Virus record (IMG/VR): IMGVR_UViG_3300030430_001650
Location: 1 to 36,620 of that record
From: a virus
Strand: one strand, 5' to 3'
DNA: 36,620 nt
Position numbers and translations under genes: made by a program. Numbering within the stretch: the stretch's first letter is position 1; every line of letters begins with the position of its first letter. Positions 628 to 27,700 of this stretch are shown piece by piece. Below the pieces are notes generated by a model. It did no database searches. It was not told the DNA's origin and saw nothing but the letters and a program-made list of their open reading frames with translations.

Positions 628-1353
628 ATGGGCTGGCGGGATATTCTCAAGAATGTTATAACGCAAGGAAAGATAAAAGAAATAGAGGATATTGATATAG
701 ATATAGAAGATGATGACTGTAATAGGAAACTGCAACAACTAGTAAACAAATTAAAAAACACTAAATTACTTCTTGAACAGACTTGGGACAGAGGTTGGGA
801 TGAGGATAAATATTCACAGCATCCAGATGTTCAAGATATGGCAATACCTTTTGATAGAGATGCAGTTCTAGTTGAAGAAAGAAACAAAAAACCGGAGTCA
901 AGAAATTTTTCTATTAAAGACAAAAAATCAGATATAACTATATTATCGGAGAGCCTATTTTATACCTATAATCCTGTTCCTGAAGAAGTCGCTTGTAAAG
1001 CATTAGAAATGTTAAGACTAGAAAGAACGGAGGACTATCAAATGGAGGTCGGAGGTCGGATGTATGGAATCCACCGTTTTTATGATGAAGATGCAAGTTT
1101 GACAGAATACTATGAAGTAGAGATGTTTAATGCCATTAATATTTCAGTTGGTGGTAAACGATTAGAGGATGGCTATACATATGGAGGCGAAACTCTAGTG
1201 GTTATTGAGTGGTCGGCTTCTGTATTAGAGAAAAGTAGAATTGGTCTTAGCGGAGATATTTATTCTGATGATAATTTTTATTATTCCGATTACGCAAGAA
1301 TATTATCCGAATGGGATAAAACTGGTGAGTATGGTTTAACTTGGCACAAGTGA
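628..1353 (+). CDS. Tagged hypothetical protein (N-terminal W-x-D-I-L-K tag), 241 aa
   Basis: The start is ATG at 628, preceded by an AAGGTGAG ribosome binding site. A longer reading from 496 would overlap the previous gene and lacks such a site. The protein opens with MGWRDILKN, the short tag shared by many proteins in this window. An acidic stretch (IDIDIEDDD) follows at about residues 22-30, then a mixed alpha/beta region rich in Y, D and E. No catalytic motif or family is recognised. The TGA stop lies inside the next gene's ribosome binding site (AAGTGATTAATATG), which suggests translational coupling. If the tag is a capsid-targeting signal, this would be a packaged protein; that is inference. 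Confidence 0.75.
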   Translation: MGWRDILKNVITQGKIKEIEDIDIDIEDDDCNRKLQQLVNKLKNTKLLLEQTWDRGWDEDKYSQHPDVQDMAIPFDRDAVLVEERNKKPESRNFSIKDKKSDITILSESLFYTYNPVPEEVACKALEMLRLERTEDYQMEVGGRMYGIHRFYDEDASLTEYYEVEMFNAINISVGGKRLEDGYTYGGETLVVIEWSASVLEKSRIGLSGDIYSDDNFYYSDYARILSEWDKTGEYGLTWHK

Positions 1354-1358
1354 TTAAT

Positions 1359-1529
1359 ATGAAGTGGAAAGATATTCTTAAAGAAAAAACTAATAAGGAA
1401 AGTATAGAGAAAGAAGCGGGAGCAGTCACTACTACTTCTCCTTCGGCAGTTTCAGGAAAATTATTCAACATAACTTATGGGGGGAAAAAGCATGGTAAAA
1501 AGAAAAAAGATAAAGAAGAAAACGATTGA
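1359..1529 (+). CDS. Tagged small basic protein, 56 aa
   Basis: The ATG at 1359 gives MKWKDILKEK, a full copy of the shared tag; the in-frame TTG at 1341 lies inside the preceding gene and is less likely. After the tag comes a Ser/Thr/Ala linker and a strongly basic, then acidic, tail (KKHGKKKKDKEEND). The 3' end overlaps the next gene in another frame. The size and charge fit a nucleic-acid-associated accessory protein, but no domain is recognised. The overlap with the following gene makes the exact boundaries less sure. Confidence 0.6.
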   Translation: MKWKDILKEKTNKESIEKEAGAVTTTSPSAVSGKLFNITYGGKKHGKKKKDKEEND

Positions 1530-2931
1530 TTACAAAGGTATGGGAATCAATCAGAATCTCGATAAGTATGATTTTGTTAATGAGTATGCTAAATGGAAGA
1601 AAACTTGTTTAGGTATTTCCGGAGGCAAAATGCGAGTAAAAAATATTCCAACACTTTTCGACTTTCTCAAGAATCATCTTACTGGAACTTATGTTAGAGA
1701 AAAGAGTAGAAACAGAAGGGCGGGGGCAATAGGACAAGGCGCAGTAGAGGCTATCAAAACAATGGATAGAGTTCTACAAAAAAATTACTTGAGCGAAGAT
1801 GACTTAGAAGATGTTACTGATTTAGCGAAAGTGTTGGCTGATTTATATGAAACAGGAAAGGATGTAGGCAAAGAAGGAGTAGCCCTAGACCCCGCATTTA
1901 TCGTTTTTAGTGAGCCTAGAAAGGATGCTAGAGGAAACCCAATGACACCTAAAACAATAACAGGTCACTATGCTACTGCTAAGTATGCTAAAAAATATAA
2001 TACTACTCCAGCCCCTAACGCTTGGTTTGCTGGAACAATGGATGGTGGAAATATTCCCCATCAATCATTATATAATAAAAAACCTAGTTCAGACTTTGAT
2101 TCAAGGGGTCTTAGATATATTCTAGAAGATGCGATACAAGCAGTATCAGAACCAATAGAGGTAGAGGGCGCACCGATAGGAGAAGATGATTTTATAGATT
2201 GGATAAAGTTAAATGCCTTTGAAACTTTTTTTGTTAAGTCCACTAGAAATACTGCTTTTTGGAAAGATGGTAAGTTATTGGTAAGTAAGTTGAGAAGGGA
2301 GTTTGAATCAACTGAATTTAAAATAGGTAATAAAGAAAAGAAAGAGATTGAAAGATTGACTAAACTAAATACAAAAGATGCTCCTGCGGGAGAAGTTGGA
2401 ATGGTAACTTGTAAGGCTACGCCCGAAGTTATTGTTATGTTTGTTAAGCAAGCACTAAAGATAAGAGGAACATCTAAAGCACCGGATGGAAAACCTGCGT
2501 GGCAGAATGTTATCAAAGATAAAAAGAATGGTTTTGATTTTAGAAGTGAGGGACTACAAGACATAGTAGTTCCTGTTAGTAAAAAAACACAGGCAGTAGC
2601 ATTAGCAAAGATACCGGAGATAAAGAGGTATGCGCAGGCTTTACTTAGGAATACTTCACTGTATAACGATAATGACTTTCAAACCTCTCAGTCTCTTAGA
2701 ATGCTAAGAGAAAAGAACTTTGACTTTTCACCTACTTCTAAAAATAAAATAATGGATATGTTTAATCTATCAGATGTTAGAAAAATAAATTTCAAACTTA
2801 CAAAAAATGCTATGAAGGCTTTGCTAAACCAATCAGTAATTACTCGAACTAGAGATTTACAAAGCATGAATGCGCCTAACACAGATGAAAGAATAGTATT
2901 GAAATCGTGGATGGATATTTTGAGGAATTGA
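1492..2931 (+). CDS. Hypothetical protein with C-terminal W-M-D-I-L-R tag, 479 aa
   Basis: Two starts are possible: ATG 1477 without a visible ribosome binding site, and ATG 1492 preceded by GGGGGGAAA; I prefer 1492. The N-terminus is very basic (VKRKKIKKK), followed by a mostly helical protein with no recognised domain. The last nine residues are KSWMDILRN, so the shared tag sits at the extreme C-terminus here instead of the N-terminus. That placement argues that the tag is a portable docking peptide and not a by-product of a shared translation start. The TGA overlaps the lead-in to the putative small terminase gene one base downstream. Function unknown. Confidence 0.8.
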   Translation: MVKRKKIKKKTIDYKGMGINQNLDKYDFVNEYAKWKKTCLGISGGKMRVKNIPTLFDFLKNHLTGTYVREKSRNRRAGAIGQGAVEAIKTMDRVLQKNYLSEDDLEDVTDLAKVLADLYETGKDVGKEGVALDPAFIVFSEPRKDARGNPMTPKTITGHYATAKYAKKYNTTPAPNAWFAGTMDGGNIPHQSLYNKKPSSDFDSRGLRYILEDAIQAVSEPIEVEGAPIGEDDFIDWIKLNAFETFFVKSTRNTAFWKDGKLLVSKLRREFESTEFKIGNKEKKEIERLTKLNTKDAPAGEVGMVTCKATPEVIVMFVKQALKIRGTSKAPDGKPAWQNVIKDKKNGFDFRSEGLQDIVVPVSKKTQAVALAKIPEIKRYAQALLRNTSLYNDNDFQTSQSLRMLREKNFDFSPTSKNKIMDMFNLSDVRKINFKLTKNAMKALLNQSVITRTRDLQSMNAPNTDERIVLKSWMDILRN

Positions 2932-2932
2932 T

Positions 2933-3595
2933 ATGGTAACAAGAAAGCGTTGTGGCATGTGCCAACATGAAGATAGAACAGAACTAGAAAATTTGCTAGA
3001 GAGTGGTTCTACTACTTGTGATGATTTAGATGAGAAATACGGATGGAGAAGCGGAACTGCGGCACAGCACCAAAGAAACCATATGGGAGATTTTGAAATG
3101 AGTTCTAATCCTAAATGTAAATTATGCGTAGAACCAAATAGAAAAGAAATAGAAATAGCCTTGTCTAATGGAGAAATCACTACTAAGGAAGTGGCGGCTG
3201 AATTAGATACTACTCAACAACAAATACAAAGACATCTTAAACACCACTTAACCCCTATTGTTCAAGAGAGTGCGGCTATGATGATAGCAAAGAAAGAAGT
3301 AAATGAAGTAGATTTACTTTCTAGAAATGTATCTAAATTGGATATGAGACTAGAACAAGTCTTTGATGAATTAGGAAATGATTTAGACCCTAAGATGATT
3401 GATGCTCTAACTAAACTCGCTAGAGAGATTAGAGAATCATTAAAATACTTGATGGAGTTTAAGGGTAAATTGATACATAGGCGACAAGATACCGTAATTG
3501 TTCATCAAATGCAAATAGTCCAAGAAGTATTAGCACAAAATAATCCGCAGATATGGTTAGAGATTAAACAAAGAATGCAGGAGAAATTACAATGA
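2933..3595 (+). CDS. Putative terminase small subunit-like DNA-binding protein with two zinc-finger/HTH repeats
   Basis: The 220-residue protein has two tandem repeats: C7-x2-C10 with H46 and H50, and C62-x2-C65 with H101 and H104/H105. Each spans about 45 residues with a helix-turn-helix-like body (for example TTKEVAAELDTTQQQIQRH). Proteins with a C-x2-C, an HTH and a distal H-x3-H are common near phage terminase genes and often act as the DNA-recognition subunit. The C-terminal half is helical and probably mediates oligomerisation. It lies upstream of the large terminase but 6 kb away. The end carries the repeated leader sequence, which encodes MQEKLQ. Small terminase is an inference from motif and position; another DNA-binding role is possible. 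Confidence 0.55.
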   Translation: MVTRKRCGMCQHEDRTELENLLESGSTTCDDLDEKYGWRSGTAAQHQRNHMGDFEMSSNPKCKLCVEPNRKEIEIALSNGEITTKEVAAELDTTQQQIQRHLKHHLTPIVQESAAMMIAKKEVNEVDLLSRNVSKLDMRLEQVFDELGNDLDPKMIDALTKLAREIRESLKYLMEFKGKLIHRRQDTVIVHQMQIVQEVLAQNNPQIWLEIKQRMQEKLQ

Positions 3596-3753
3596 CTTGG
3601 GAAGAAGAAATTAAGAAAAGTGAAACACCTATTGAAGATAAAATGAAAAAGGATGTTAAAGAAATTTTAAAGAAACTATTAACTGAGGGAGAAATAAAAG
3701 AAAAAATAACAGTTTCAAGAAACCTTCTTAATATGATTTATAATTTAATTTAA
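3592..3753 (+). CDS. Tagged micro-protein, 53 aa
   Basis: An ATG overlapping the previous stop (ATGA) opens a 53-codon frame ending at TAA 3751-3753. It starts MTWEEEIKK, a divergent copy of the shared tag, and is preceded by the AGGAGAAATTACA leader seen in front of the next three genes. The rest is a highly charged helix (DKMKKDVKEILKKLL) with a hydrophobic C-terminus. The leader, the start overlap and the tag together make it a convincing gene despite its size. It may be a decayed or minimal relative of its tagged neighbours. Function unknown. Confidence 0.7.
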   Translation: MTWEEEIKKSETPIEDKMKKDVKEILKKLLTEGEIKEKITVSRNLLNMIYNLI

Positions 3754-3769
3754 TGCAGGAGAAGTTACA

Positions 3770-3991
3770 ATGAGTTGGGAAGATATATTGAAAAAAGACT
3801 TCTTACAAGTTAAAGAAGCATTAAAAGAAGCCCAAAAAAGAGCAAATAAAACGGGTAAAACTCAATATGTTATTGCTGAATCGTATGGTGGAGAACCCGC
3901 AGAATATACAATTGAGACAGAAGATATTTCTTTTGAACACCCGACCCTTTCATTATACGAAAAAGTTGAACCAAAGGAGAAATTACAATGA
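3770..3991 (+). CDS. Tagged small protein, 73 aa
   Basis: The protein begins MSWEDILKKD, a clean copy of the shared tag, with the AGGAGAAGTTACA leader directly before the ATG. A charged helix rich in K, E and A follows to about residue 28. Then comes a probable beta region with Y, I and E residues. The C-terminus KEKLQ is encoded by the next copy of the leader, and the stop overlaps the next start (ATGA). No family is recognised. It belongs to a run of four short genes that share leader and tag and otherwise differ, probably products of cassette duplication. Confidence 0.75.
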   Translation: MSWEDILKKDFLQVKEALKEAQKRANKTGKTQYVIAESYGGEPAEYTIETEDISFEHPTLSLYEKVEPKEKLQ

Positions 3992-4254
3992 GTTGGCAAG
4001 ATATTGTTAAGTTTGAAGGCTTGACTCCTAAAGATATAGCAACTAAGTTTGCTGATGGCCTATTTGATAACTATGCAAGAAAAATGAAACTAGAAGAAAT
4101 AGAGCCTGATGTTAATTTAAGACTATTAATGAAACAATACAAAAGAACCCTCATTAAAAATTTACAAGAAGAAATCGAAAGGCTTGATGATGCTATCAAC
4201 ACTATTGCAGAAGGTAAAATACCATTTCAAAAAATGCAGGAGAAGTTACAATGA
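3988..4254 (+). CDS. Tagged small helical protein, 88 aa
   Basis: It begins MSWQDIVKF (shared tag) after an AAAGGAGAAATTACA leader, with a 4-base overlap on both sides. The body is predicted to be helical: a short amphipathic segment at residues 12-35, then a long charged helix at about 45-75 (QYKRTLIKNLQEEIERLDDA) that could form a coiled coil. The C-terminus MQEKLQ comes from the next leader copy. No catalytic motif is visible. Tag and context suggest the same fate as its neighbours, possibly virion packaging, which is inference. Confidence 0.75.
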   Translation: MSWQDIVKFEGLTPKDIATKFADGLFDNYARKMKLEEIEPDVNLRLLMKQYKRTLIKNLQEEIERLDDAINTIAEGKIPFQKMQEKLQ

Positions 4255-4529
4255 GTTGGAAAAATATACTAAAGATGCTACTACCTAGACAATTCATGGA
4301 GCATTTTGCATTTAAATTAGGCCTTGAGTCCGATGCAGTAAAGGGTGGACATGGAAAAGCAGGAATTAAAATGTTTATTGACTTTGAAGATAAAAGATTA
4401 GAACTATTACAAAAAGGAAGAGGGGGCTTTACTATTTTTATTAGAGAAAATAACATGGTAGTTGAGCGATTTACTAATTTTAATTTAGAAAAACTACTAG
4501 AACCCGTTGAAGAAGCACTCAATTTGTAG
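4251..4529 (+). CDS. Tagged small protein, 92 aa
   Basis: It begins MSWKNILKM (shared tag) after the AGGAGAAGTTACA leader and overlaps the previous gene by four bases. The remaining sequence looks like a small alpha/beta domain. A helix (PRQFMEHFAFKLGLES) is followed by strands around IKMFIDF and GGFTIFIREN, then a closing helix. No family is recognised. It is the last of the four genes joined by the duplicated leader; the next gene keeps the tag but has a different leader and a TTG start. Confidence 0.75.
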   Translation: MSWKNILKMLLPRQFMEHFAFKLGLESDAVKGGHGKAGIKMFIDFEDKRLELLQKGRGGFTIFIRENNMVVERFTNFNLEKLLEPVEEALNL

Positions 4530-4540: not shown

Positions 4541-6577
4541 TTGAACTGGCTACAAATTTTAAAAGAGGACTTTTTACCTATAACTAGAGTAAAAGTTTTG
4601 GCTAGAACTCTAGTTAGAGAGCAAATATTCGATGATTTTTATGAAAGTTTCAAGAATGCGGATAAAAATAGTGCAGAATCCAAGCAATTTTCTAGATTTT
4701 TAGATAATCTTTCCGGAAATACACCAAATAGAAGGAGTTTGTTTGAAGAAATTGATAAATTTTCTGAAAAAAAGGGCTTAAATCCGGCAGAGGCAAAAAA
4801 AAGACTGGAAAAATTAATGGAATTGAGAGTAAAACGCCCCACTAAAACAAAAGATTCCCTAATGAAACTAATTACCGACCTTCACAATGTAACTAGAGAG
4901 GTTGAAGTTGCTAAAAAGAAGCCGGATGGTGCTAGTAATGAACTTTTAGAGGAACAAAGTAAATTAAGAAAAGAAACTGAGGCATTTTTGGAAGAAAGAG
5001 CAGGTCTACCACTCACAGGCAAGGGTGGAAATTGGAATAAATATCCCGATGCACAGACTATGTGGCAATATGTCATAACTAGAAGGCAAGAACCTTACTT
5101 TACTATAACACCATACGAAGGGAATGAAGATAAAGTCAATAAATTTGCAGAAATGATAGGTGCGAACAATAAAGATGGTAAATTATACAAGAAAAGTGGT
5201 GAGTTTACTGGATTTAATCAATTTATTAAACTAGTAAACTCAAATCCGGACATTTTAACTTACTATAATGAAAATATTAGAAATTTGAGCCTTAAATTTG
5301 TTAAGGATGAGTCATCGACCTCTCTTGATAAAGACGCTTTGAGAATGACAAGAGATAGAATACTAGGATTAGAATATACTGTTAAAACATTTACAGAAGA
5401 TACAGTATTAGAGTATATAGAAGTAATTAACGAGTCTGTTGAAGGTAGTAAGAAGATATTCATTCCTAATGAGCCATTTATTAAAAATTATGTTATGGTT
5501 TCGGGTATGGGAGATGATTTAGTTATGTCCTCAATAGCAAAAACAATACTAAGGCCTAATTTTGATGACAAATGGGTAACTACTTTAACAGGTGTAATCA
5601 GAAGAGAGAACTTATTGAGTGATTATGCCATAGAAAGAAAATTAATTGAAGAAATAGTGGAAGTTTTGCAGTCCGGAGGCACTAATTACAAAGGATTAGA
5701 CCTTTCAGAGTATGAAATAACTGGAACAAGAGAGCAAAAAAAGAGAAAAGTTACTGATTTAGTAAAAAATAGGAAAAGTCCTAGTAGATTATCGCAAGGT
5801 TTTGGTAGATTAACAGGCCAATTAAAGGCTAATTTACCTGCTTATTTAAGGGATAATCCTAGTGTTTCTGAGGCAAAAATCATTGAAAATGAGTATTCTG
5901 ACCTATATGATGTAATATATTTCAATGGTAAAGAAGAAAATAACAAACCAACTGATGAAAGAGATGATGCAGGACAGATAATTATGGCTAATACAGCCGA
6001 TGGCGCTACTCATGCTCAAATATATGACAAAGACGACCCTACAGAAATAATTCAATTAAAAGATATCTACGATGAATTGGTAGATATTGGAGAACAAAGA
6101 ACAGAAGAAGGTAGACAATTCAACAATCCCACTCTTATTAGATTGAGGGAACTAAGTGGTTTAACCGATGATGTATTTTCCAAGCATTTAATTTCTATTT
6201 CTGAAACTAAGGGACTAGTAGAGTTAGTTAATACATTTGATATTTCCGCTACTATACCTAATTTATCATTAGACGAGTTTATTGGTTTCATTGGTCTTAA
6301 TGCAGAAGTAGTGGGGGCTGATGGTCTTTTGGATGCTTATGCAGAATTAGATAAAACGGGAGATGTAAAAATAGCAGACCAAATAAAAGAAGATATACCT
6401 ATAATCTTGAACAACCTTAAAAAAGAAATTATTTCTGCATTTGAGAACCATGTCAAACTATTTGCAGAGAACTTTACTGGAGGGAAATTTAAATTAGGAA
6501 GGGGAGGCTCGACTAAAGCAAAGAAGGCTCTTGAGGCTCTATCAGATGAAAGCGTTGGGATATTAAGGGAGAGTTAG
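4541..6577 (+). CDS. Large tagged hypothetical protein, 678 aa
   Basis: A TTG start at 4541, with GTAGGAG upstream, gives MNWLQILKED, the shared tag, and so fixes the start. The protein is mostly helical and charged, with likely coiled coil at about residues 60-150 (lysine- and glutamate-rich). A more globular region containing NYVMVSGMGDDLVMSS lies near 310. The C-terminus has a Gly/Lys-rich stretch (KFKLGRGGSTKAKKALEAL). There is no signal peptide or membrane segment, and no family is recognised. Its size, the tag and its place beside another large unknown protein suggest a virion-internal or ejected protein; that is inference. Confidence 0.75.
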   Translation: MNWLQILKEDFLPITRVKVLARTLVREQIFDDFYESFKNADKNSAESKQFSRFLDNLSGNTPNRRSLFEEIDKFSEKKGLNPAEAKKRLEKLMELRVKRPTKTKDSLMKLITDLHNVTREVEVAKKKPDGASNELLEEQSKLRKETEAFLEERAGLPLTGKGGNWNKYPDAQTMWQYVITRRQEPYFTITPYEGNEDKVNKFAEMIGANNKDGKLYKKSGEFTGFNQFIKLVNSNPDILTYYNENIRNLSLKFVKDESSTSLDKDALRMTRDRILGLEYTVKTFTEDTVLEYIEVINESVEGSKKIFIPNEPFIKNYVMVSGMGDDLVMSSIAKTILRPNFDDKWVTTLTGVIRRENLLSDYAIERKLIEEIVEVLQSGGTNYKGLDLSEYEITGTREQKKRKVTDLVKNRKSPSRLSQGFGRLTGQLKANLPAYLRDNPSVSEAKIIENEYSDLYDVIYFNGKEENNKPTDERDDAGQIIMANTADGATHAQIYDKDDPTEIIQLKDIYDELVDIGEQRTEEGRQFNNPTLIRLRELSGLTDDVFSKHLISISETKGLVELVNTFDISATIPNLSLDEFIGFIGLNAEVVGADGLLDAYAELDKTGDVKIADQIKEDIPIILNNLKKEIISAFENHVKLFAENFTGGKFKLGRGGSTKAKKALEALSDESVGILRES

Positions 6578-6578: not shown

Positions 6579-9182
6579 ATGGTAAAGATAGAGAGTGGCG
6601 GCATAGCCGTTGAAAGGAGCGAAGAGGATTTAAAAACCATAGCCGGTATTTCTGCAAGAGGGAAAAAAAGAAGGAAGCAGGAAGAGATTATAAACGAATG
6701 GGCTGAGAAATATCTTGAACAAAATAATGTTGATAGAACAGATAAGGAATACATAAAACAAAGAAAATTATTTAGAGATGCGCTAATAAAAACATTGGAT
6801 GAGTTAGAAACAACTGAGGATGTTTTAGATGCAGTGAGTTTAGAAAATCAAATACAGAACTATTCCCAGAAACTAATGTTAGAGGATAATAGAGGTAGAG
6901 TGCTGGATGCTAGGTTTTTAGTTACCACTAGACTGCCTGAAGATTTCAAAATAAATGCTAGTAAAGAAGTTCAAAATAGAACAAAGAAACTCATAGAAAA
7001 CAGATTGGGGGCAGGTCTTTTCGAGTCTAATCCGATTTCAGAAGATAATCTTATGTTCATAATAGAACGAATAGAAGAACAAGATGTAGAACCAAAACAG
7101 AGGCAATTAAAATATCCTTTGGGCGAACTCATGGGAGCAGTTGATGTTTCTAAAGGTGAAACTAGAAAGGCTGTGTATAAGTTTTGGACTAGTGTTGTTA
7201 GAGAAAAAGAAGGTAAGTTTCTTAATGATTTGAAAGACTTAGGTATTCTTTTGAAGCAGTTAAACAATGAAGAGGCTAACAAATTCATTATTAGATATAA
7301 TTTAGAAAACGACCTAACTAAATTTGTTTACATAGCAGACTTCCCATTTACTGATATACTAGTAGCAGATGCAGGAGCAAGATTAGTTCTATTGATAATT
7401 AGACTAATGCAAACTCAAGGTCTCTATGATAAAATAACTGAAATAAAAGATACTCCAGAAGAAAGAGCAATAGAAGAAGATATTTCGGGTGGAAAGCAAG
7501 AGGCTATGGAGCAAGCCTTTCTAAATACGGTTGGGGGAGATAGTCAATATACTGGTGCTACTATTTCGGAAGATGAACTACAACAATCAATAGAAGAATT
7601 TGAAGAATTAGCCGGAGAAGGAGTCTATGCTAAATTTATGGAGCAGGCAAAATCAATTCCTTCTAAAGCAGACCCTCTTCTAGTTTGGGAAAATAGTAGA
7701 AACATAAAACTTGTAGCCATTATAGAAAAACACTATACTATCTTAAAGTCTTATTTGGAAAATGCTTTGGCACAAGATGACTTAACCATAAATGTAAGGC
7801 AAGACTTTGAAAGACTAATAGATGAATTGGAAGATACACTAACGGTAGAAGGAATAGAAGATAACCCCGACGGAACTAATTCAACATTTCCTTTTGCATT
7901 ACCTCTCTCTGTTTTGGCAGATAAGGCTTTTTACTCTACTTATGGCACAAGAGACTTTGTTGAAAAAAGCGGATTCTATCCTCTAAGAAGAAGCGATGGC
8001 GGAGACAGAGATAATATAGATTACTCTAAAAAAATAGACTATGATAATATTAATTTTATTAAAGATTTCTTTAATGATTTGTCGTCGTTAGTATTGGTTA
8101 GTGACCCAGACCAATTCCCTATGGGCGCAAGAGAAGCAGTTGGAACAAGGGCGACTAGAGGCCAAGGTAAAACTACTATTGATTTTAGAGATACAACGGC
8201 TGGCTCTGCTATTGGTTCTTATGTTAAAGATACTGCCTTTAAACCTAAACCACCTAAATTCAATGAAACCTTTAACGAAGCCGAGGCAAAAAGAGTTCTT
8301 AAAAAGTTCTTCAAATCTGCTGAGGAATATTACTACGAGCCTATGAATAGAGGTATGCTACCTGTTTCTGTCCCTTCTTTTTACAATGCTGTTGGTGGAA
8401 AGGTAGTTAAAGAAATAAATAAGTTACTAGGTAATAAGACTGGTATTACTAGTCCGTTTTTTAGAGGAAGTAGAAGATTTAGAAATATAAGTTCAGTAGA
8501 TTTTAGAAACATTATAGATTATTTAAGAGACTACCAAGACATTGACACTAATGTAAATGACCAACTTATTGCGTCGGGCAAAAGAGCCGCAACCTCTCTG
8601 AAGAAATTTGGAGTAGGAGATGATGATGCCTTTGGTTTTATTTCACTTTTATTGTTTAACATAATGGATGAAACACAAGACTTTTCTAAAAAGGATAGAA
8701 AAATAAAAGGAAAAACGATAGAAGATAGGGCTAATGAAACAAAAACGGGTAGTTCTTCATTTAAGTTAGATTTTATTAATACATTAGAGGAGAAACAAAG
8801 TCTATTTGCTGGAGGCGGCCAAGACGAAAGAGACAAAAGAGAAGCCTACTTTGAACTAATACAACTATTAAGAGATAGTGTTAAGCAAGATTCTCCTTTA
8901 ACTATCGGTAAAATGGTTAATAAAAAATTATTAAAAGCGCACGATGTTATAAGAAAATCTTTAGGAAAAGAAACCGTGTATGGATTCTTACCATTGACTT
9001 TTGATAACATAGATTTGGTAATAGAAAAAATGCACAAAGAAGAAAATTTGGATTTGAGTCATATGGAAGTAGAGAATATTGTTAAGTCAATTGATTCTCA
9101 TGAATCTATAGGTAGAGATTATGGCATAACTACTGACCATGTATATTTAATTAAGGCTAGATTTAGACAAAGAGTTTGGTAG
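6579..9182 (+). CDS. Large hypothetical protein with C-terminal HTH-like segment, 867 aa
   Basis: ATG at 6579 follows the previous TAG by one base. This is the longest protein in the window. It lacks the shared tag and is rich in charged residues, with predicted helices throughout and a possible coiled coil in the first 150 residues. The last 35 residues (about 833-865) look like a helix-turn-helix: a helix containing S-H-E-S-I-G-R-D-Y-G-I, then T-T-D-H-V-Y-L-I-K, ending in basic R and K. No enzyme motif is seen. It may work with the preceding 678-residue protein, given adjacency and similar character. Function unknown. Confidence 0.75.
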   Translation: MVKIESGGIAVERSEEDLKTIAGISARGKKRRKQEEIINEWAEKYLEQNNVDRTDKEYIKQRKLFRDALIKTLDELETTEDVLDAVSLENQIQNYSQKLMLEDNRGRVLDARFLVTTRLPEDFKINASKEVQNRTKKLIENRLGAGLFESNPISEDNLMFIIERIEEQDVEPKQRQLKYPLGELMGAVDVSKGETRKAVYKFWTSVVREKEGKFLNDLKDLGILLKQLNNEEANKFIIRYNLENDLTKFVYIADFPFTDILVADAGARLVLLIIRLMQTQGLYDKITEIKDTPEERAIEEDISGGKQEAMEQAFLNTVGGDSQYTGATISEDELQQSIEEFEELAGEGVYAKFMEQAKSIPSKADPLLVWENSRNIKLVAIIEKHYTILKSYLENALAQDDLTINVRQDFERLIDELEDTLTVEGIEDNPDGTNSTFPFALPLSVLADKAFYSTYGTRDFVEKSGFYPLRRSDGGDRDNIDYSKKIDYDNINFIKDFFNDLSSLVLVSDPDQFPMGAREAVGTRATRGQGKTTIDFRDTTAGSAIGSYVKDTAFKPKPPKFNETFNEAEAKRVLKKFFKSAEEYYYEPMNRGMLPVSVPSFYNAVGGKVVKEINKLLGNKTGITSPFFRGSRRFRNISSVDFRNIIDYLRDYQDIDTNVNDQLIASGKRAATSLKKFGVGDDDAFGFISLLLFNIMDETQDFSKKDRKIKGKTIEDRANETKTGSSSFKLDFINTLEEKQSLFAGGGQDERDKREAYFELIQLLRDSVKQDSPLTIGKMVNKKLLKAHDVIRKSLGKETVYGFLPLTFDNIDLVIEKMHKEENLDLSHMEVENIVKSIDSHESIGRDYGITTDHVYLIKARFRQRVW

Positions 9183-9190
9183 GGATAATT

Positions 9191-12485: not shown

Positions 12486-12628
12486 ATTTAATCGAGTGGG
12501 TGAGATATAAACAATCCACACAATTCAAGTATTTTGGATGCTGTTACATAGCAGATATAGCGTATGCGTTTGGATTTTGTAAAGAGTGTTGGATAAAAGA
12601 AGGTAAACCAATGGAGGTAAAAATATGA
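12482..12628 (+). CDS. Cysteine-rich micro-protein, 48 aa
   Basis: A TTG at 12482, overlapping the previous TGA, opens a 48-codon frame that ends at 12628, overlapping the next ATG (ATGA). Both overlaps match the packing style of this genome. The peptide has C20-C21 and C33-x2-C36, which could bind a metal ion, and is aromatic-rich (Y, F, W). No family is recognised. The coding call rests on the overlaps and the cysteine pattern. Confidence 0.45.
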   Translation: MNLIEWVRYKQSTQFKYFGCCYIADIAYAFGFCKECWIKEGKPMEVKI

Positions 12629-13911: not shown

Positions 13912-13916
13912 TTACT

Positions 13917-19804: not shown

Positions 19805-20027
19805 AGAAGAATCAATTAATAAAGAACTACTTGAAATAATAAAAGCCCTTACTGCTAAAATAGAAAACTTAGAAAAAACGGTTTACAATGACGATAATCT
19901 ATTAATGAAATCCGGTTTTGTTGTTGTTGATAGCCCATCTCCTACGATGAAAGTAATAGATACTAAGGAAGAAGTAAGTGGCATGGAATGGAGCGAAATT
20001 CATAAAATGGTAGACAGTATGGGATGA
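19797..20027 (+). CDS. Small scaffold-like protein with C-terminal tag, 76 aa
   Basis: ATG 19797, with AGGTGAGA upstream, is a better start than 19788. An N-terminal acidic coiled coil (ELLEIIKALTAKIENLEKTV) is followed by a short beta-like region. The end, GMEWSEIHKMVDSMG, is nearly identical to the C-terminus of the prohead protease/scaffold protein encoded at 22834 (MDWSEIHKMVGGY). Two head-module proteins with the same C-terminal peptide suggest both bind the same partner, perhaps the capsid shell. A small scaffold or assembly cofactor is my inference. Confidence 0.75.
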   Translation: MSEEESINKELLEIIKALTAKIENLEKTVYNDDNLLMKSGFVVVDSPSPTMKVIDTKEEVSGMEWSEIHKMVDSMG

Positions 20028-20286: not shown

Positions 20287-22776
20287 TTGAAACTCGGCTC
20301 TTTAGAAAAGGATAAGCGTTCTTCGGTAGAGTTAGTAAAATTATTTGAGATATCTAGAGTTGCTTTCTTATCGGCTAATAGTGACCCTAAAGAATACGGT
20401 CACAAATGGAGAAAGGCTGTAGAGCAAGTTAGAGAATCTTATGATGAATTAGATGTAGCAGGCAGAGAATTAAAGAACTTTATAGAAAGGAATCTATTAG
20501 AACACCAAGATGTTAGTGACCCCACATCTCCTCAAGCAAGAGAACTTTATGAAGATATTAAACTTATTAGATATAAATCGGATGTCGTTATAGACCCATT
20601 TGCTAAAAGATTTGGAGAGGGTGTCTTAGAAGAGTTACTAGATAATCCTGAATCTATGGTTAAGTTTGTTCATTATGCTATCAGAGATAACACTCATGCG
20701 CTAGGAAAAGAAACTCTACAAATAAAAGATATGGAAGAGGATACTTTAACCGATGGATTAGCAGGACTAGATTTAGAACCGGATGATGTAGCACTATACA
20801 TAATAGAAAACTATGGTGATGGTAAAGATTCTAAAAAAGTCAAATCCAAAGTTAAAGCCGCTATGGATATGTTAGAGTTAATTTACTTTTCACAACACAG
20901 TGAAGAAGATTGGGATGAACTTTTAGATATTGATATGAAGAAAGCAGAAAAAGCCCAAAGCGACTTTATTATTCCCAACAAACCAATGTATAGAATATTT
21001 GAGATAAATGATATGAACGAACTAAAAGGATTTAGTGGAGAATATATTGTTCAAGAAAAGTATGACGGTATGAGAATACAACTGCATAAGATAGACGGTA
21101 ATGTAAAGATATACTCATATAATGAAAAGGATATTACTGAAAAGTGTAAAGACATAGTTAAAGAATTAAAAGCAAAACACTTCGGGGAGTGTATTTTAGA
21201 TGCAGAATTGATTTTATTTGATGGTAAAGAAGCACTGCATCGGGCTGATACAATTGCTCATGTGTTTAAAAATAAATATCCTGAAGCCACTCTAAAAGCC
21301 CATGTCTTTGATATTATGAGACACGATTCTCAAATGTTATTAGAAGAAGAATTAGATAGTAGAATTAGGACTTTGTTTAATAATTATTCACAACACTCTT
21401 CTGATGTTCTACTTTTCCCCTCAAAGAAAGATACTCGATTTGCTGATTCAATTAAGGAGGTAGCAGAATACTCTAAAGACATAATGGATATTCCTACTGC
21501 GGAAGGAGTCATGATAAAAGACATTACTTCAATATATTATGTGGGAACTAAAAAGAATCCTAAGTGGGTCAAATGGAAGAAGTTTGTAGACTTAGATGTA
21601 GTAGTTCTTAGCAAAACTAAGACAAAAAGTGGCTTGCATTCTTATAGTGTAGGAGTTGGCCCAATATTAGATGATATACCTAATACTGTTGAAATAGATG
21701 ATATAAGATATCTAAATGTAGGCAAAGCACTAAACACTAAGATAGCGGTTGATGTTGGGGATATTATTAGAGTAAAGGTAGATGAAGTTAAGAAAACGGC
21801 TAACGGTTACTCTTTATTTTCTGCTAAGGTAATCGAAGTTCCGGAAGTAGAATATCCGGATAAATTAGTTACTTTAGCCATGCTTGCTAAGGACACAAAG
21901 AAGTCTTTGAACTATGATGTTTCAGCATTGGAAAAAGGAATCAAGGTAACAGATTATGTTCATGGAGAAACTACTGCTATTCTCAAATACGATATGAATG
22001 GTTTTACCCTTTATGGCTTTGAAGAAAACAATTTAATGTCAAAGAATGCTTTAGCAGATTTAGATATGTGGAAAAGCAAGGCAATAGAAATAATGAAAAC
22101 AAAACAGGGAGAACTCACTGCGGCTATTCATCAATTCCTAACTAAGAAGGGAGAGCAAACAACTCGACAACTACATGAATTCTTAGTAACTAATCATAGA
22201 AGTTTGTATCAAGATATACTAGATGCTAAACAAAACAAACTAAGAGATTGGGCTGTTCAACGAGAACCGATATTAGAAGGACAGAATAATAAAATAAAGG
22301 CAGACCCCGAATTTAAATTTGGTGCAGACGAAATTAAAAAATATGAAACACCTGAAAAATATAGAGAGGGTGAGTTCAAAATATCACTTAGAGAAGATAA
22401 CAATATACAATTTTCAATTAGATTAAAAGATAAAAATTTACACTGGACTATTGAGATTGATGATGAAAAAGAACTGTTTGATTTATTTGGTGCGGCAGGC
22501 AAATACCCTGCTGAGGTGTCAGAAAATGTTCAAAACAAAAAAACCATTGATTACGGTAAGATAAAATTAGGAATACAAAGAAATGGATATCACGAATATT
22601 TCTTAGAAGGTAACAAATTTGAGACTAAGTTACATATTAGGTATTTACCTGTTGAAGATAAAAAGATGTGGCTAGCATGGACTGGATATAAACAAAAACC
22701 TGCCGATAAAGCCGGAGATGAAGGTATTTGGGATATTTACGAAGATAAATTTAATTCTGTAAAAATACCAAAATAA
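20287..22776 (+). CDS. ATP-dependent DNA ligase with extra C-terminal domain, 829 aa
   Basis: The adenylation site is K258 in EKYDGMR. Further motifs are LDAELI (304-309), HVFDIM (339-344), EGVMIK (406-411) and KWVKWKK (426-432). An N-terminal DNA-binding helical domain (1-230) and an OB fold (about 433-545) give the archaeal/eukaryal ligase layout. About 280 further residues follow, including L-H-W-T-I-E-I and G-Y-H-E-Y-F-L-E-G. They form a beta-rich domain that I cannot name securely and that faintly recalls LigD-type phosphoesterase domains. The start is TTG 20287. The enzyme seals nicks; its place among head genes is unusual. Confidence 0.92.
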   Translation: MKLGSLEKDKRSSVELVKLFEISRVAFLSANSDPKEYGHKWRKAVEQVRESYDELDVAGRELKNFIERNLLEHQDVSDPTSPQARELYEDIKLIRYKSDVVIDPFAKRFGEGVLEELLDNPESMVKFVHYAIRDNTHALGKETLQIKDMEEDTLTDGLAGLDLEPDDVALYIIENYGDGKDSKKVKSKVKAAMDMLELIYFSQHSEEDWDELLDIDMKKAEKAQSDFIIPNKPMYRIFEINDMNELKGFSGEYIVQEKYDGMRIQLHKIDGNVKIYSYNEKDITEKCKDIVKELKAKHFGECILDAELILFDGKEALHRADTIAHVFKNKYPEATLKAHVFDIMRHDSQMLLEEELDSRIRTLFNNYSQHSSDVLLFPSKKDTRFADSIKEVAEYSKDIMDIPTAEGVMIKDITSIYYVGTKKNPKWVKWKKFVDLDVVVLSKTKTKSGLHSYSVGVGPILDDIPNTVEIDDIRYLNVGKALNTKIAVDVGDIIRVKVDEVKKTANGYSLFSAKVIEVPEVEYPDKLVTLAMLAKDTKKSLNYDVSALEKGIKVTDYVHGETTAILKYDMNGFTLYGFEENNLMSKNALADLDMWKSKAIEIMKTKQGELTAAIHQFLTKKGEQTTRQLHEFLVTNHRSLYQDILDAKQNKLRDWAVQREPILEGQNNKIKADPEFKFGADEIKKYETPEKYREGEFKISLREDNNIQFSIRLKDKNLHWTIEIDDEKELFDLFGAAGKYPAEVSENVQNKKTIDYGKIKLGIQRNGYHEYFLEGNKFETKLHIRYLPVEDKKMWLAWTGYKQKPADKAGDEGIWDIYEDKFNSVKIPK

Positions 22777-22833: not shown

Positions 22834-24114
22834 ATGAGTTCTGCGGTGATAAGTAATAGAACCAACGACTTTAGCATCTTAAAAAGTAATCAAGACTTGA
22901 TGATTGGAGGATATGCAAGCATAGAAATCGTGGATAAACAAAACGATTTAATTACACTAAAGGCTTTAGAAGAAGCAGTAGAGAAGTATATGCAAAATCC
23001 GAAGTTTAGAAATGTAATGACAAATCACTCAAATGTTCAAGTTGGAGAAGTAGTAAAATCATATCGAGATAAAACGGGGAGATTGTGGAAAACAGAAGTA
23101 GATGATGTTGGTTTCTTCGTAGTAATTAAGTTAAGAGATGATATAGAAAAAGCCAAAGAAATAGGAAGAGGCGTAAGAAAAGGTTCATTGAGGTCATTTA
23201 GCATAGGAGGACAGGCATTACAAAAAGTAAAGAAAAGTCATCCAGAGTTAGGAGATTACAATGAAATAAGCAAACTGGAATTGCATGAGGTAACAATTTG
23301 TGAAAAAGGAATAAATCCCGAAGCAAGATTTGATATTTTAAAGCAAGATAAACAGGTGAAAAATATGAGCAAGTTAGAAAAAGCATTGGCGGAACTTGAC
23401 ACTCTAATGGAGCAAGTCAATACGCTACGAAAAGAAGAAGCCGAAATGATGGACACTGAAATGATGGATGATGACAAAGAATCCATGAAAGAGTCTATGG
23501 AAGATGAGAATATGATGGAAAACATGGATGATGAAAAAGAATCTATGAAAGACATGGAAAGGATGAAGGACATGGAAAGAATGCAAGATGTCCCTACTGA
23601 TGACATGGAAAGAGGTGCATATGGTGACAAAATGGCAGATAAAGCCTATGTTGCTACATTGGACGGAGCAGGTGTCGAAATTGGAGAACCTGCTGATAGA
23701 ATTGTTATTGATAATGGCAATCCTAAGCCAAGTGGACTTCCTGTTGTTAAAGCATTTAACAATGATGAATTAGATACACTAAACCTTTCTAACCTAAATA
23801 TTGAAAAAGCATATGAGTCTTATCGACAAGAGCAACTAGAAGAAATTGCTCTAAGTAATCTAGAAAAGCAATTTAGTGCAAGATTTAAAGCAGAAAAAGC
23901 AAACCGAGAAAACATTTTGGCAAAGTCACAATATGATGCTCAAGCCGAAATAGCATCTCTAAAAGATGAGTTTACTCAACTAAGAAAGTCTTTGACTGCT
24001 GAAAAAGAAACAATTCTAAAAGCACAAAAGGCGGCAGAAGAAGAACTCCCAAGTATGGAAGATTTGGCTGAAATGGATTGGTCAGAGATTCACAAAATGG
24101 TAGGAGGTTATTAA
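22834..24114 (+). CDS. Prohead protease fused to scaffold, with C-terminal docking tag, 426 aa
   Basis: Residues 1-170 resemble the HK97-type prohead protease (herpesvirus assemblin fold). The likely catalytic histidine is H65 (TNHS), the serine S123 (LRSFSIGG), and the third residue lies near H151/E152 (ELHEVTICEKG). A Met/Glu/Asp-rich repeat at about 205-260 is followed by a long coiled coil (about 325-405). This is the scaffold part that templates the shell and is then degraded. The last residues, MDWSEIHKMVGGY, match the shared tag. In herpesviruses and some phages the scaffold C-terminus binds the capsid protein, so this peptide is a good candidate for that contact. GAGAGGT precedes ATG 22834. 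Confidence 0.85.
   Translation: MSSAVISNRTNDFSILKSNQDLMIGGYASIEIVDKQNDLITLKALEEAVEKYMQNPKFRNVMTNHSNVQVGEVVKSYRDKTGRLWKTEVDDVGFFVVIKLRDDIEKAKEIGRGVRKGSLRSFSIGGQALQKVKKSHPELGDYNEISKLELHEVTICEKGINPEARFDILKQDKQVKNMSKLEKALAELDTLMEQVNTLRKEEAEMMDTEMMDDDKESMKESMEDENMMENMDDEKESMKDMERMKDMERMQDVPTDDMERGAYGDKMADKAYVATLDGAGVEIGEPADRIVIDNGNPKPSGLPVVKAFNNDELDTLNLSNLNIEKAYESYRQEQLEEIALSNLEKQFSARFKAEKANRENILAKSQYDAQAEIASLKDEFTQLRKSLTAEKETILKAQKAAEEELPSMEDLAEMDWSEIHKMVGGY
23464..23600 (+). repeat. Imperfect repeats inside the scaffold linker
   Basis: Two about 38-base units at 23464 and 23524 (each containing ATGGATGATGA, then AAAGAATC) are followed by short repeats of an ACATGGAAAG type. They encode the M/E/D/K-rich linker (M-K-D-M-E-R-M-K-D-M-E-R-M). 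The repeats look like local slippage and could vary in length between relatives. Confidence 0.7.
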
Positions 24115-24115: not shown

Positions 24116-25498
24116 ATGACAGGATATATTAACACAATAGCAGATTTAGAAAGACAGACATACGGACTATCGGGCATTAGCGGTCAATTGCTAAAACAAA
24201 GTGGTGCAGTTCAAGCACTACACAGTGGCCACGATACCACATTAGGAGTAGGAAGCGGAACTTCATCAATAGGAGATAGAGCCGCTTTGTATAACCGAGT
24301 ATTTGGTCAAAAGGTTTGGTCAATGCTAAACAGAGAATGTAATGCACTTTCAGTTATTTCAAAGAGACCATATGTTTCAAGTGGTTGGAGAGTATTGGTA
24401 GAAAGACCTGCTGGTGGTAGTGGAAATTCACTAGATGTAACCGCAAGAACAGGGGCTAATTCTGATGCCCTTATTGGAGCAAGCACACTAAGACCCGATT
24501 TGATTGGTGGTGTTCCTGAAAATGCTAAACTAGGAACTAACGCTGATGGATTGTTTTCTATTGCACCAAAGTATTCTACACTATTTACAAGCCCAAAGAT
24601 TATTGCACATCAATTTGAGTTCAGCGAACTTGCTATGGAACTTGCACAAATTGATGATGGTATTGGCGACATTAGAGCGCAAATGCGTGAAGATATGGGT
24701 AAGCACCATGCAGAAGTTCAGAACCAAATGCTAGTTATGCCTCTAGAAGTTTATGACTTTGATGGCGGAGTAACAACAACAATTGCTACAATTGAAAGAA
24801 ACTATACTTCATTACTAAAGGTTGTTTCTAGTAACGATGAACTACAAAACATGAAAGCAAATGATTTGATTAAGAACGGAACATACGATGATGCAGACAC
24901 AACAAATGGTGTGGCAGAAGTTTCTACTCTATTCGGTAACAGTGATAGAGCCGCTAACGCTTCTACTTTCATGAATGCGGTTGTAAATGATGGAACTTAC
25001 TCAGCAAGTGGCCAAAGGTCTCTGACTCTAAGTTTGATTAACCAAACTCTAAGAGAAATTCGACAAAACGGTGGTTCTCCAAAGGTTATACTAACTGGAT
25101 ATGATACTCTACAAACATTGAGTGATTTGCTACAAGCACAAGAAAGATTCATGGATGGTAAAGAAATTGTGCCAACCGTAAATGGTGTTCGTGGTGTAAA
25201 GGGTCAAGAAGTCGGATTTAGAGTTTCTACTTATTACGATATCCCACTAATTCCTGTTGCGGCTATGCCATCAACAAAGCACCACTCTCTATCTACTGGA
25301 CTTTCTGATATGTTGATTCTAGATACTGACCATTTGTGGCTATCAGTTATGAAACCAACTCAATACTTTGAAGATGGTATTAGTAACGGAAACCCATTCG
25401 GTGTTGGAACTCTAGGAAACCAAGCACTTTACCGAACTATTGGTGAGGTTGGTTGTTCATACTTTAGAGGACAGGGTAAGATTACAAATCTACTTTGA
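24116..25498 (+). CDS. Major capsid protein (HK97 fold)
   Basis: This 460-residue protein directly follows the protease/scaffold, as in most HK97-type viruses. It has the expected features: a variable N-arm (1-90) and a spine-helix-like region around A-H-Q-F-E-F-S-E-L-A-M-E-L near 165. A beta-rich insert follows, then a late P-domain with I-L-D-T-D-H-L-W-L-S-V-M and a Gly-rich end. Codon use differs from its neighbours: TTA is scarce while CTA, CTT and TTG carry most leucines, as expected for a very highly expressed gene. GGAGGTT precedes the ATG. Identification rests on position, size and fold-like features. Confidence 0.85.
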   Translation: MTGYINTIADLERQTYGLSGISGQLLKQSGAVQALHSGHDTTLGVGSGTSSIGDRAALYNRVFGQKVWSMLNRECNALSVISKRPYVSSGWRVLVERPAGGSGNSLDVTARTGANSDALIGASTLRPDLIGGVPENAKLGTNADGLFSIAPKYSTLFTSPKIIAHQFEFSELAMELAQIDDGIGDIRAQMREDMGKHHAEVQNQMLVMPLEVYDFDGGVTTTIATIERNYTSLLKVVSSNDELQNMKANDLIKNGTYDDADTTNGVAEVSTLFGNSDRAANASTFMNAVVNDGTYSASGQRSLTLSLINQTLREIRQNGGSPKVILTGYDTLQTLSDLLQAQERFMDGKEIVPTVNGVRGVKGQEVGFRVSTYYDIPLIPVAAMPSTKHHSLSTGLSDMLILDTDHLWLSVMKPTQYFEDGISNGNPFGVGTLGNQALYRTIGEVGCSYFRGQGKITNLL

Positions 25499-26785: not shown

Positions 26786-27175
26786 ATGGCAGTTTTAAAT
26801 CAAGATACTAGATTAGTAATGACTATACTTTTTGTTGGAGCAGTAAGTGGGGCTAATGTCTTTGCTTATGCTAAAATAGGAACTGGTTTTCCCTATGGTG
26901 CTTTAGCACATTCTGTATTATTTGGACTAGGAACAATAGGAGCAATTATGGTAATGAAGGCTTTGTTTGATTTAGCCCTAAATGACAAGATAGAAATTTG
27001 GCTACTAGATAGAAAAATTTCTGCGTTTTGGGAAAGAAAGGCTAGAGATGACCAACAGAGAAGAAAGATGGCTGAAAGCGCAAAGCAATATAATACTAGT
27101 TTTACCTATTCAGCAAATCAGAATGAAAACGATGAAAATACCGTTAGTAATGAGTTTTTAGCAGTCCTTCAATGA
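26786..27175 (+). CDS. Membrane protein with two transmembrane helices, 129 aa
   Basis: Two hydrophobic helices (about residues 9-30 and 38-62) are separated by a short Gly-rich loop. A basic amphipathic segment (F-W-E-R-K-A-R-D-D-Q-Q-R-R-K) and a disordered N/E-rich tail follow. ATG 26786 has GAGGTTTT upstream. It is followed by a second membrane gene and the GTPase, suggesting a membrane-linked module within the virion genes. Possible roles include a virion membrane-contact protein, a holin-like protein or superinfection control; none is proven. Confidence 0.7.
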   Translation: MAVLNQDTRLVMTILFVGAVSGANVFAYAKIGTGFPYGALAHSVLFGLGTIGAIMVMKALFDLALNDKIEIWLLDRKISAFWERKARDDQQRRKMAESAKQYNTSFTYSANQNENDENTVSNEFLAVLQ

Positions 27176-27186
27176 GGGGTGGCTAA

Positions 27187-27405
27187 ATGGTTCTCGGAGA
27201 TATAATGGGTTTTTCTGATTCTGACTACGCCTATAATCAATCTAGAGCGCATTCAGCAGACATTTTCTTTTTGAAAATGAGAGCATGGTTTTGGGGAGGC
27301 TTTTCTACTTTGTCTATGTTCTTAATTGGTAATATTATGGGAGTCTTTGACATTAATATAATGGGTTGGATTATAGAGAGGGTTAAAGATATTTGGAGTC
27401 ATTAA
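27187..27405 (+). CDS. Small membrane protein, one transmembrane helix, 72 aa
   Basis: ATG 27187 has GAGGGGTGG upstream; a second ATG at 27205 is possible. A polar, Tyr/Ser-rich N-terminus precedes one hydrophobic segment (about residues 34-58, with Gly and Phe) and a short basic/aromatic end. It forms a pair with the preceding two-helix protein. A holin-like role is conceivable but unsupported beyond size. Confidence 0.6.
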   Translation: MVLGDIMGFSDSDYAYNQSRAHSADIFFLKMRAWFWGGFSTLSMFLIGNIMGVFDINIMGWIIERVKDIWSH

Positions 27406-27406
27406 T

Positions 27407-27700
27407 ATGTGGAAAAATATTCTTAAAAACTATGTTTCTATTGCTAACCAATTGTTAAAAGATTTAGAATATTTTAAACCTAAAATAGTGGGTTCGGTTG
27501 GTAAAAAGGAAAACCCAAAAGACATTGATTTGTTGTTTCCTTTAGATGTAGATTGGGATAAACTAAATAAAAAATTAAATGAGTTAGGTTGGAAATTGAG
27601 ATATGCGGATGAGGATGAGTTCAACGGTGAGATTTTTTGGAACTATGAAAAACAAATAGATGGAGATTTTGTAGGTTTAGATGTATTTATAGGTGAATAA
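27407..27700 (+). CDS. Tagged minimal nucleotidyltransferase, 97 aa
   Basis: It begins MWKNILKNY, the shared tag without the extra residue before W. The polymerase-beta-type nucleotidyltransferase pattern follows: G29-S30, D39-I-D41, and a third acidic residue, D92 (GLDVF). These match the G-S...D-x-D...D metal-binding set of minimal nucleotidyltransferases. Such enzymes transfer nucleotides to proteins, RNA or small molecules, often with a partner. The TAA precedes the GTPase gene's ATG by one base. Catalytic residues are complete by eye, but the family call needs structural comparison. Confidence 0.65.
   Translation: MWKNILKNYVSIANQLLKDLEYFKPKIVGSVGKKENPKDIDLLFPLDVDWDKLNKKLNELGWKLRYADEDEFNGEIFWNYEKQIDGDFVGLDVFIGE

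Follow-up and report, generated by a model that had tools for sequence, protein, structure and literature searches.

A portable six-residue tag on many otherwise unrelated magrovirus proteins, a candidate prohead-targeting signal

A 36,620-base stretch of a 38,283-base virus record (IMG/VR record IMGVR_UViG_3300030430_001650), hereafter the window, encodes a major capsid protein (MCP; SU10_MCP, phrog_24667), a Peptidase_S78 prohead protease, the large terminase TerL, a portal protein and an ATP-dependent DNA ligase, together with a series of proteins that share a short peptide, mostly at their N-termini. We refer to this peptide, with the strict consensus M-[S/T/N]-W-x-[D/N/E]-[I/V]-[L/I]-K, as the tag, and count positions such as +2 from its W. 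The window is a piece of a magrovirus-type tailed archaeal virus genome, because the size of its relatives, their family-B DNA polymerase (PolB), their opposed gene modules and the MCP matches fit the published description of magroviruses. Close relatives occur in IMG/VR records that reach 97 kb, several of them measuring 88-97 kb, and in a single one of 185 kb; PolB was present in four of four relatives tested, and replication and morphogenesis genes run in opposite directions in the two genomes examined. Among named phage records, the MCP matched Druskaviridae haloviruses (~24% identity) and one uncultured Methanofastidiosa virus, and by sequence it had no relative of solved structure at E ≤ 0.01. 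Magroviruses of Poseidoniales have been described with matching traits, and the order Magrovirales is delimited by a tailed-virus genome of ~90-110 kb, opposed replication and morphogenesis modules and a halovirus-related MCP (PMC12999244, PMC10768690), features that we find in the close relatives of the window and in its MCP.

A first-pass annotation had counted 20 copies of W-x-[D/E/N/Q]-[I/V]-[L/I/V/M]-K in the window. All 20 are present at the genes it named, but they are of three kinds rather than one motif. Thirteen match the formula, every one of them N-terminal (genes 628, 1359, 3770, 3988, 4251, 4541, 12625, 12833, 13108, 14369, 14577, 15142 and 27407). Five are looser: WEEEIKK (gene 3592), WISILK (13603), C-terminal WMDILR (1477, previously given as 1492), C-terminal WHLILK (9176, previously 9191) and internal WQDMLK (13908, previously 13917). 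The last two, C-terminal WSEIHK in genes 19797 and 22834, are indeed present and C-terminal, but belong to a separate, related and highly conserved class of C-tails. One further match to the formula, WQNVIK at residue 342 within gene 1477, was absent from the earlier list. The features concerned are as follows.

628-1353, + strand: N-tagged protein of 241 residues, tag WRDILK at 634-651
1359-1529, + strand: N-tagged protein of 56 residues, tag WKDILK at 1365-1382
1477-2931, + strand: 484-residue protein, C-terminal tag WMDILR at 2908-2925
2933-3595, + strand: untagged 220-residue protein with weak helix-turn-helix similarity; its 3′ end (MQEKLQ-TGA) makes the first cassette junction
3592-3753, + strand: N-tagged protein, loose tag WEEEIKK at 3598-3618
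3770-3991, + strand: N-tagged protein, tag WEDILK at 3776-3793
3988-4254, + strand: N-tagged protein, tag WQDIVK at 3994-4011
4251-4529, + strand: N-tagged protein, tag WKNILK at 4257-4274
3565-3614, 3743-3792, 3961-4010 and 4224-4273, strand not assigned: four copies of a junction repeat (ribosome-binding site, ATGA overlap and tag)
4541-6577, + strand: N-tagged 678-residue protein, tag WLQILK at 4547-4564
9176-9694, + strand: 172-residue protein directly before TerL, C-terminal tag WHLILK at 9668-9685
12625-12837, + strand: K/R-rich N-tagged protein, tag WQEVLK at 12631-12648
12833-13102, + strand: K/R-rich N-tagged protein, tag WRNILK at 12839-12856, apparent ATT start
13108-13596, + strand: N-tagged protein, tag WLNVIK at 13114-13131
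13603-13911, + strand: N-tagged protein, loose tag WISILK at 13609-13626
13908-14372, + strand: K/R-rich protein, internal tag WQDMLK at 14037-14054
14369-14572, + strand: N-tagged protein, tag WKDIIK at 14375-14392, weak winged-helix similarity
14577-15149, + strand: N-tagged PAP2 phosphatase, tag WMDILK at 14583-14600
15142-15480, + strand: K/R-rich N-tagged protein, tag WMDILK at 15151-15168
19797-20027, + strand: 76-residue head-operon protein, C-tail MEWSEIHKMV (WSEIHKMV at 19989-20012)
22834-24114, + strand: prohead protease (Peptidase_S78) with a presumed scaffold region, C-tail MDWSEIHKMV (WSEIHKMV at 24079-24102)
24116-25498, + strand: MCP, untagged; proposed shell or receptor
27407-27700, + strand: small N-tagged protein, nucleotidyltransferase-like by eye only, tag WKNILK at 27410-27427

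The tag was then followed through 160 related, partly overlapping loci plus the window, in which genes were called by a simple longest-open-reading-frame rule; the 3449 gene calls gave 2877 distinct proteins, grouped by single linkage at E < 1e-5 into 601 clusters. The recurrence of the tag is confirmed in this set and is larger than first reported. Using default starts, with no tag-guided choice, 129 of the 601 clusters carry the strict motif with its W no later than residue 6, and tag-guided starts raise the number of N-tagged clusters to 150; the figures 129-150 are an upper bound on independent families, since single-linkage clusters of short proteins may split true ones. The comparison with shuffled proteomes proposed in the first-pass annotation clearly bears out terminal enrichment: whole-protein shuffles gave on average 0.13 tagged clusters (maximum 2) against the 129 observed, and shuffles within residues 2-13 gave 0.84 (maximum 3). 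None of the 720 orderings of the motif classes outscored the true order, the runner-up reaching 84 and largely overlapping the true motif. At the DNA level, 20 related records contained 122 tag matches versus 0 for the backwards pattern. Of 413 distinct strict matches in the comparison set, 364 are N-terminal, 44 internal and 5 C-terminal; a set of 360 distinct strict N-tags has W as the third residue in 262 cases and ATG as start codon in 340.

The tag is portable, being the constant part of an interchangeable gene set. An alignment of 150 tagged proteins yields the consensus MxWxDILK and thereafter no majority residue, and 84 of the 150 tagged clusters are singletons. Individual families retain it. 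In that of gene 4541, where 20 of 22 relatives share 17-21% identity with the window member, W3 and K8 are kept in 96% of 23 members and rank with the best-conserved columns. The family of gene 1477 (18 in the cluster, window included; 17 aligned) shows no variation at the C-terminal K476 and W478. The cluster of gene 9176 (cluster 1) is chained by fusions and is not one family; its members bear the motif at either terminus or where a shared domain meets one of various added modules. In the window this domain is encoded directly before TerL (9176-9694), and relatives have it joined to a wide range of tagged modules, the tag lying where the two meet. Position also shifts for gene 13908, whose copy is internal in the window versus strictly N-terminal in 11 of 19 cluster members, and gene 14369 belongs to a common tagged family (strict N-tag in 61 of 83). 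When homologous pairs with at least one tag were sampled, both members were tagged in 62-75% at every identity level. AlphaFold models (mean predicted local distance difference test score, pLDDT, 77.7 for gene 4541 and 71.4 for gene 1477) predict a helix at the tag, over residues 4-8 of the former and residues 470-483 of the latter, where pLDDT is below 50.

Named cargo functions are nearly absent. At E ≤ 0.001, searches with the 150 tagged proteins found only 5 Pfam, 9 PHROGs, 4 PADLOC and 4 NCBIfam families; the Pfam scan gave 6 member-level matches, and one protein weakly matched a PHROG annotated 'head protein' (E 0.00045). A profile of the 4541 family retrieved three weak matches among solved structures, the best at E 0.016. 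Several identities assigned by eye were tested in the same way: the PAP2 phosphatase was borne out by a Pfam-level match (E 3.6e-12), the supposed nucleotidyltransferase (gene 27407) matched DUF6932 at E 0.011, below the cut-off, and the supposed GNAT-like protein had no Pfam match at E 0.1. Nor do basic DNA-binding proteins describe the carriers in general: median net charge per residue is 0.000 in tagged and 0.012 in untagged clusters, so this is not a general property. As the first-pass annotation had stated, the structural core lacks the tag (TerL 0/72, portal 0/91, MCP 0/67, tail protein 34168 0/22 within their clusters).

Tagged proteins are confined to one strand. On the strand encoding MCP and TerL (the morphogenesis strand), 369 of 2439 distinct proteins are tagged, versus none of 438 on the other strand, some of which are spurious reading frames; without deduplication the gene calls give 425/2948 and 0/501. 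The 122 tag-DNA matches follow the MCP or TerL strand in 20 of 20 records, and in another 22 records with both data, tag and MCP/TerL strands always agree (22/22). Pieces of two genomes (L398-L405, overlapping by ~1 kb) show where along the genome the tag occurs: in those dominated by the replication strand and containing PolB (L398, L403, L404), none of the 113 gene calls is tagged, 75 of these calls being shorter than 150 residues, and tags were found in 10/26, 2/31 and 3/14 gene calls of L400, L401 and L405, respectively. In the five records with TerL placed (seven of the 20 records were used), tags lie at most 15.1 kb from TerL. At least one strict N-tag occurs in 76 of 80 TerL loci and 46 of 80 MCP loci; among loci longer than 21 kb, all 27 TerL loci have 3-10 strict N-tags and 18 of 21 MCP loci have a strict tag. 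Judged by strand and position, the carriers thus appear to be a late or morphogenesis gene set.

The tag is also linked to this capsid lineage. A stringent tag-DNA scan matched at least 119 stretches in the viral collection. Of 50 viral records picked by tag DNA alone, 31 contained a cognate MCP (51-69% identity) and 5 of the other 19 a cognate TerL. The remaining 14 comprise five records over 50 kb with a single match each, as expected by chance, three of 36-39 kb with 3-4 matches, which may be fragments, and six short ones (<28 kb). The uncultured Methanofastidiosa virus vir519 is without the tag; two loose-motif matches were seen in the Druskaviridae and vir519 stretches, one of them inside the vir519 MCP, and neither is a terminal tag in the proteins examined.

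Two head-assembly proteins end in a related peptide. The tail M-[D/E]-W-S-[D/E]-I-H-K-M-V closes both the prohead protease and the 76-residue protein encoded upstream of it, which form one BLAST cluster that the shared tail helped to join. Its W is present in all 62 proteases and in all 80 of the 76-residue proteins (142/142). In eight more diverged records, all 16 proteins kept W and had H/D/N at +4; an acid stood at +2 in 15 of them, and I/V/L at +3 likewise in 15. The tail and the cargo tag have W, +2 and +3 in common and differ at +4. This is a conserved C-terminal segment of the head protease, whose C-terminal part we take to be scaffold, and its binding to the coat is predicted. A scaffold end that resembles the cargo label is the single most suggestive clue pointing to prohead docking. 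Separately, a tag-resembling internal segment, HLWLSVMK-like, is present in 67 of 67 MCPs (24116-25498 in the window); that the tag mimics it is an idea prompted by the likeness, with nothing connecting the two.

What could such a peptide do? We propose that the tag forms a short N-capped helix, one face of which presents W, I and L; position +2 is mostly an acid or N, and +5 is K. Placed at a cargo terminus or in a linker, the helix would bind the capsid protein or the scaffold core as its viral receptor within the growing prohead; proteins otherwise unrelated would thereby be co-assembled into the head and probably ejected together with the DNA. That the tag is a capsid-targeting (docking) sequence for the prohead is, on the sequence evidence, somewhat more likely than not. 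We infer prohead loading, which we hold with somewhat better than even confidence, to be the best explanation because the tag is portable, occurs on the morphogenesis strand only, has a counterpart in the C-tail of head proteins and matches the logic of the phage T4 capsid-targeting sequence. On these grounds the first-pass reading of the motif as a prohead sorting signal is supported in part, with packaging a predicted step.

The internal proteins (IPs) of T4 are unrelated save for an N-terminal leader that packages them (PMC12373910, PMC3012670), and T4 cargo goes into the prohead core and is later injected (PMC9958956, PMC7411985, PMC12373910). Papers disagree on the carriers of the leader, which PMC9958956 limits to IPII and IPIII and PMC7411985 extends to all IPs and Alt. 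As in T4, a short N-terminal peptide is the sole common part of proteins with diverse bodies (129 of 601 clusters; the 150-protein alignment), and the carriers are late or morphogenesis genes, here by strand and position only. The T4 leaders MKTYQEFIAEA (IPII, IPIII) and MKTFKEFT (IPI) contain an aromatic-x-acid-hydrophobic series near the N-terminus, close to W-x-[DNE]-I. By analogy, the tag most probably works like the T4 sequence, since the T4 leaders show a similar residue-class pattern and package unrelated proteins. It is nevertheless not a member of the T4 family: inspection reveals no homology beyond the residue-class pattern, W and K are fixed in the tag and absent from T4, the tag is also found C-terminally (invariant within a family) and internally (at domain junctions), making three allowed positions, and it has no visible conserved cleavage site. 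It is spread over up to 150 clusters across relatives, compared with a handful of T4 proteins whose packaging, unlike that predicted here, is established.

Encapsulin cargo-loading peptides, likewise short, portable and terminal, dock cargo in a pocket on an HK97-fold shell (PMC8229669), a docking that is only predicted for the tag. Unlike the tag, they are mostly C-terminal, ~10 residues long and found on one or few cargos of a shell that is not a virus; the shell gene here is a tailed-virus MCP in a TerL-portal-protease block. The conserved tail of these viruses can be compared with the C-terminal helix-turn-helix of the P22 scaffold, essential for assembly (PMC9962691), and with the C-propeptide of the SPN3US prohead protease, proposed to target the protease to the prohead (PMC7411985). 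Unlike in P22, a tail-like peptide is also spread over cargo, and the scaffold part of the protease is assumed. The N-terminal capsid-targeting region of phage P1 DarB is longer than 9 and shorter than 30 residues, with no consensus among Dar proteins according to its paper.

Several results weigh against prohead targeting. No residue exceeds ~22% at any of the 10 positions after K in the 360 N-tags, so no shared protease cleavage site is seen, unlike in T4. The tail-side pieces of the two dissected genomes (L399 and L402) have 0 tags in 32 gene calls, hence the tag is not general to late genes, and 3 of the 21 MCP loci longer than 21 kb are without a strict tag. The nearest cultured relatives, Druskaviridae, have neither tag nor tail in the parts read (half of the HVTV-1 genome, nearly all of HCTV-1). 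At +4 the C-tail has H, N or D (E in 3 of 142), versus L or I in the cargo tag; no N-terminal protein among the clusters has H there, save the outlier WRELHR. Moreover, this position varies among diverged clades while the cargo tag stays constant, so a receptor common to both is only a possibility. Homologues of tagged proteins are often untagged (one-sided in 25-38% of sampled pairs), so the tag must also be lost, gained or mis-called. Fold searches with the models of genes 4541 and 1477 retrieved no solved structure at E ≤ 0.001. Finally, we found no virion proteomics in the literature, and members of the group are known from metagenomes only (PMC10768690, PMC12999244).

The most serious competitor, which we nonetheless regard as unlikely, is that the tag docks late proteins on some other viral assembly (the terminase/portal machine, a tail part, or a replication or assembly focus), with no packaging into the head. 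The clustering of tags around TerL, the C-tagged protein of gene 9176 directly preceding it and the restriction to the late strand would all fit. However, portal, TerL and the tested tail protein have neither tag nor tail, and it is the protease and the 76-residue head-operon protein that have the tail; the variety of rare cargo, more than half of it singletons, also fits a set of internal proteins better.

Less likely still is a host factor (RNA polymerase, proteasome, chaperone, clamp or membrane protein) that binds the tag and so recruits or stabilises viral accessory proteins. In its favour, small ORFans are numerous among the tagged proteins and frequent among host-takeover proteins, and amphipathic helices of the W-x-x-I-L type commonly serve as binding motifs. 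Yet the replication-side pieces, rich in small reading frames, are tagless, as is the other strand. When the tag-DNA scan was applied to 84,980 cellular species, in a set that presumably includes Poseidoniales, it gave 31 scattered matches, none titled Thermoplasmatota or MGII. On this result we reject a host-wide signal, and on the 0/113 replication-side gene calls and 0/438 other-strand proteins an early host-takeover signal. Strand confinement, the related C-tail and the T4 logic argue, in addition, against a general host-factor signal and leave prohead targeting as our preferred reading.

Could the tag instead be an amphipathic helix that docks proteins at the envelope membrane? The W at an interface position, the hydrophobic face, the terminal K and a PAP2-family phosphatase among the cargo would agree with this. 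We consider it improbable: the tag is only six residues long and occurs inside proteins at domain junctions, and when +2 was left free (464 N-termini with W at residue 2-5, [IV] at +3 and K at +5), D, E or N stood there in 344, which disfavours insertion.

Some tagged genes share more than a peptide. Genes 3592, 3770, 3988 and 4251 start inside a 50-nucleotide repeat that combines a ribosome-binding site, an ATGA stop-start overlap and the tag; in this island 3′ of gene 2933 (3565-4273), the junction recurs in the form ATGCAGGAGARRTTACA followed by ATGA. The junction core AGGAGRRRTTAC[AG]ATG was found at 90 distinct places, with ATGA in 90 of 90. In 83 a W follows at residue 2-4, with loose tags of the MSWEEEIKK kind counted in, and in 49 the upstream frame is open and closes in the overlapping stop; 40 upstream proteins, many of the gene 2933 family, end in xQE[KR][LI]Q. 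The junction looks like a recombination-friendly site that would let tagged cassettes be swapped. Such a junction, together with a somewhat skewed codon use in the tag (GAT 0.92 vs 0.74; ATA 0.49 vs 0.29), might mean that the tag is a nucleic-acid or translation feature of start regions and that its protein reading is accidental. This is very improbable, as the exact leader is present in 40 and absent from 314 of 354 strict-tagged genes, synonymous codons vary for I, L and K, and C-terminal and internal copies exist; variable codons and the missing leader largely rule it out. Chance, a compositional artefact or one miscounted gene family, for which the possible splitting of true families by single linkage might speak, has a negligible claim: near-zero counts from shuffles and from the backwards DNA pattern, together with permuted motifs that never score higher, rule out chance, and the 150 aligned proteins have no majority residue beyond the tag.

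Stretches of 21 kb around TerL contain 3-10 strict N-tags, and the window has ~18 cargo copies. If prohead targeting is right, a fuller picture can be sketched, which we offer as a tentative possibility: magroviruses would carry a modular arsenal of virion-packaged, injected and cassette-borne proteins (up to 150 clusters), marked by one six-residue prohead label usable at either end or internally, which borrows the docking mode of the scaffold C-tail; the cargo would counter defence or take over the cell. Such an arsenal would be an archaeal counterpart of the injected internal proteins of T4 on a far larger scale. Already with the simpler reading, one short regular expression would pick the likely virion cargo of widespread ocean archaeal viruses, a list of almost entirely unannotated proteins and thus of candidate anti-defence or takeover proteins against Poseidoniales; the tag would be a compact means of loading foreign proteins into a tailed-virus shell, and the T4 internal-protein strategy would seem to have arisen independently in archaeal tailed viruses.

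To our knowledge, no capsid-targeting code has been described in any archaeal virus. A partial literature search (titles and the starts of abstracts) found no paper on such a tag, and the magrovirus papers examined make no mention of it; an earlier mention in the founding magrovirus paper or a 2025 survey is possible. A further paper concerns another Poseidoniales element (PMC12324425).

Other observations concern single genes and records. Gene 12833 has no ATG, GTG or TTG just before its tag; instead there is an ATT that overlaps the upstream stop (ATTAA). In the 20 sequences of its cluster 32 (window, L082, L126, L120, L107, L089 and others), ATT occupies the start position in 13, window included, and ATG the same spot in 3; the 13 ATT cases have no ATG, GTG or TTG in the two preceding codons, and a conserved non-canonical start codon is likely. 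The large ATP-dependent DNA ligase (20287-22776, 829 residues) lies between portal and prohead protease and has 69 cluster members among relatives. Between capsid and tail genes, the gene at 27693-28364 shows weak, sub-cut-off similarity to small GTPase domains (MMR_HSR1, Roc). The 184,733-base IMG/VR record (G034; loci L117 and L151) contains two MCP and two TerL genes ~90 kb apart and probably represents two joined magrovirus genomes.

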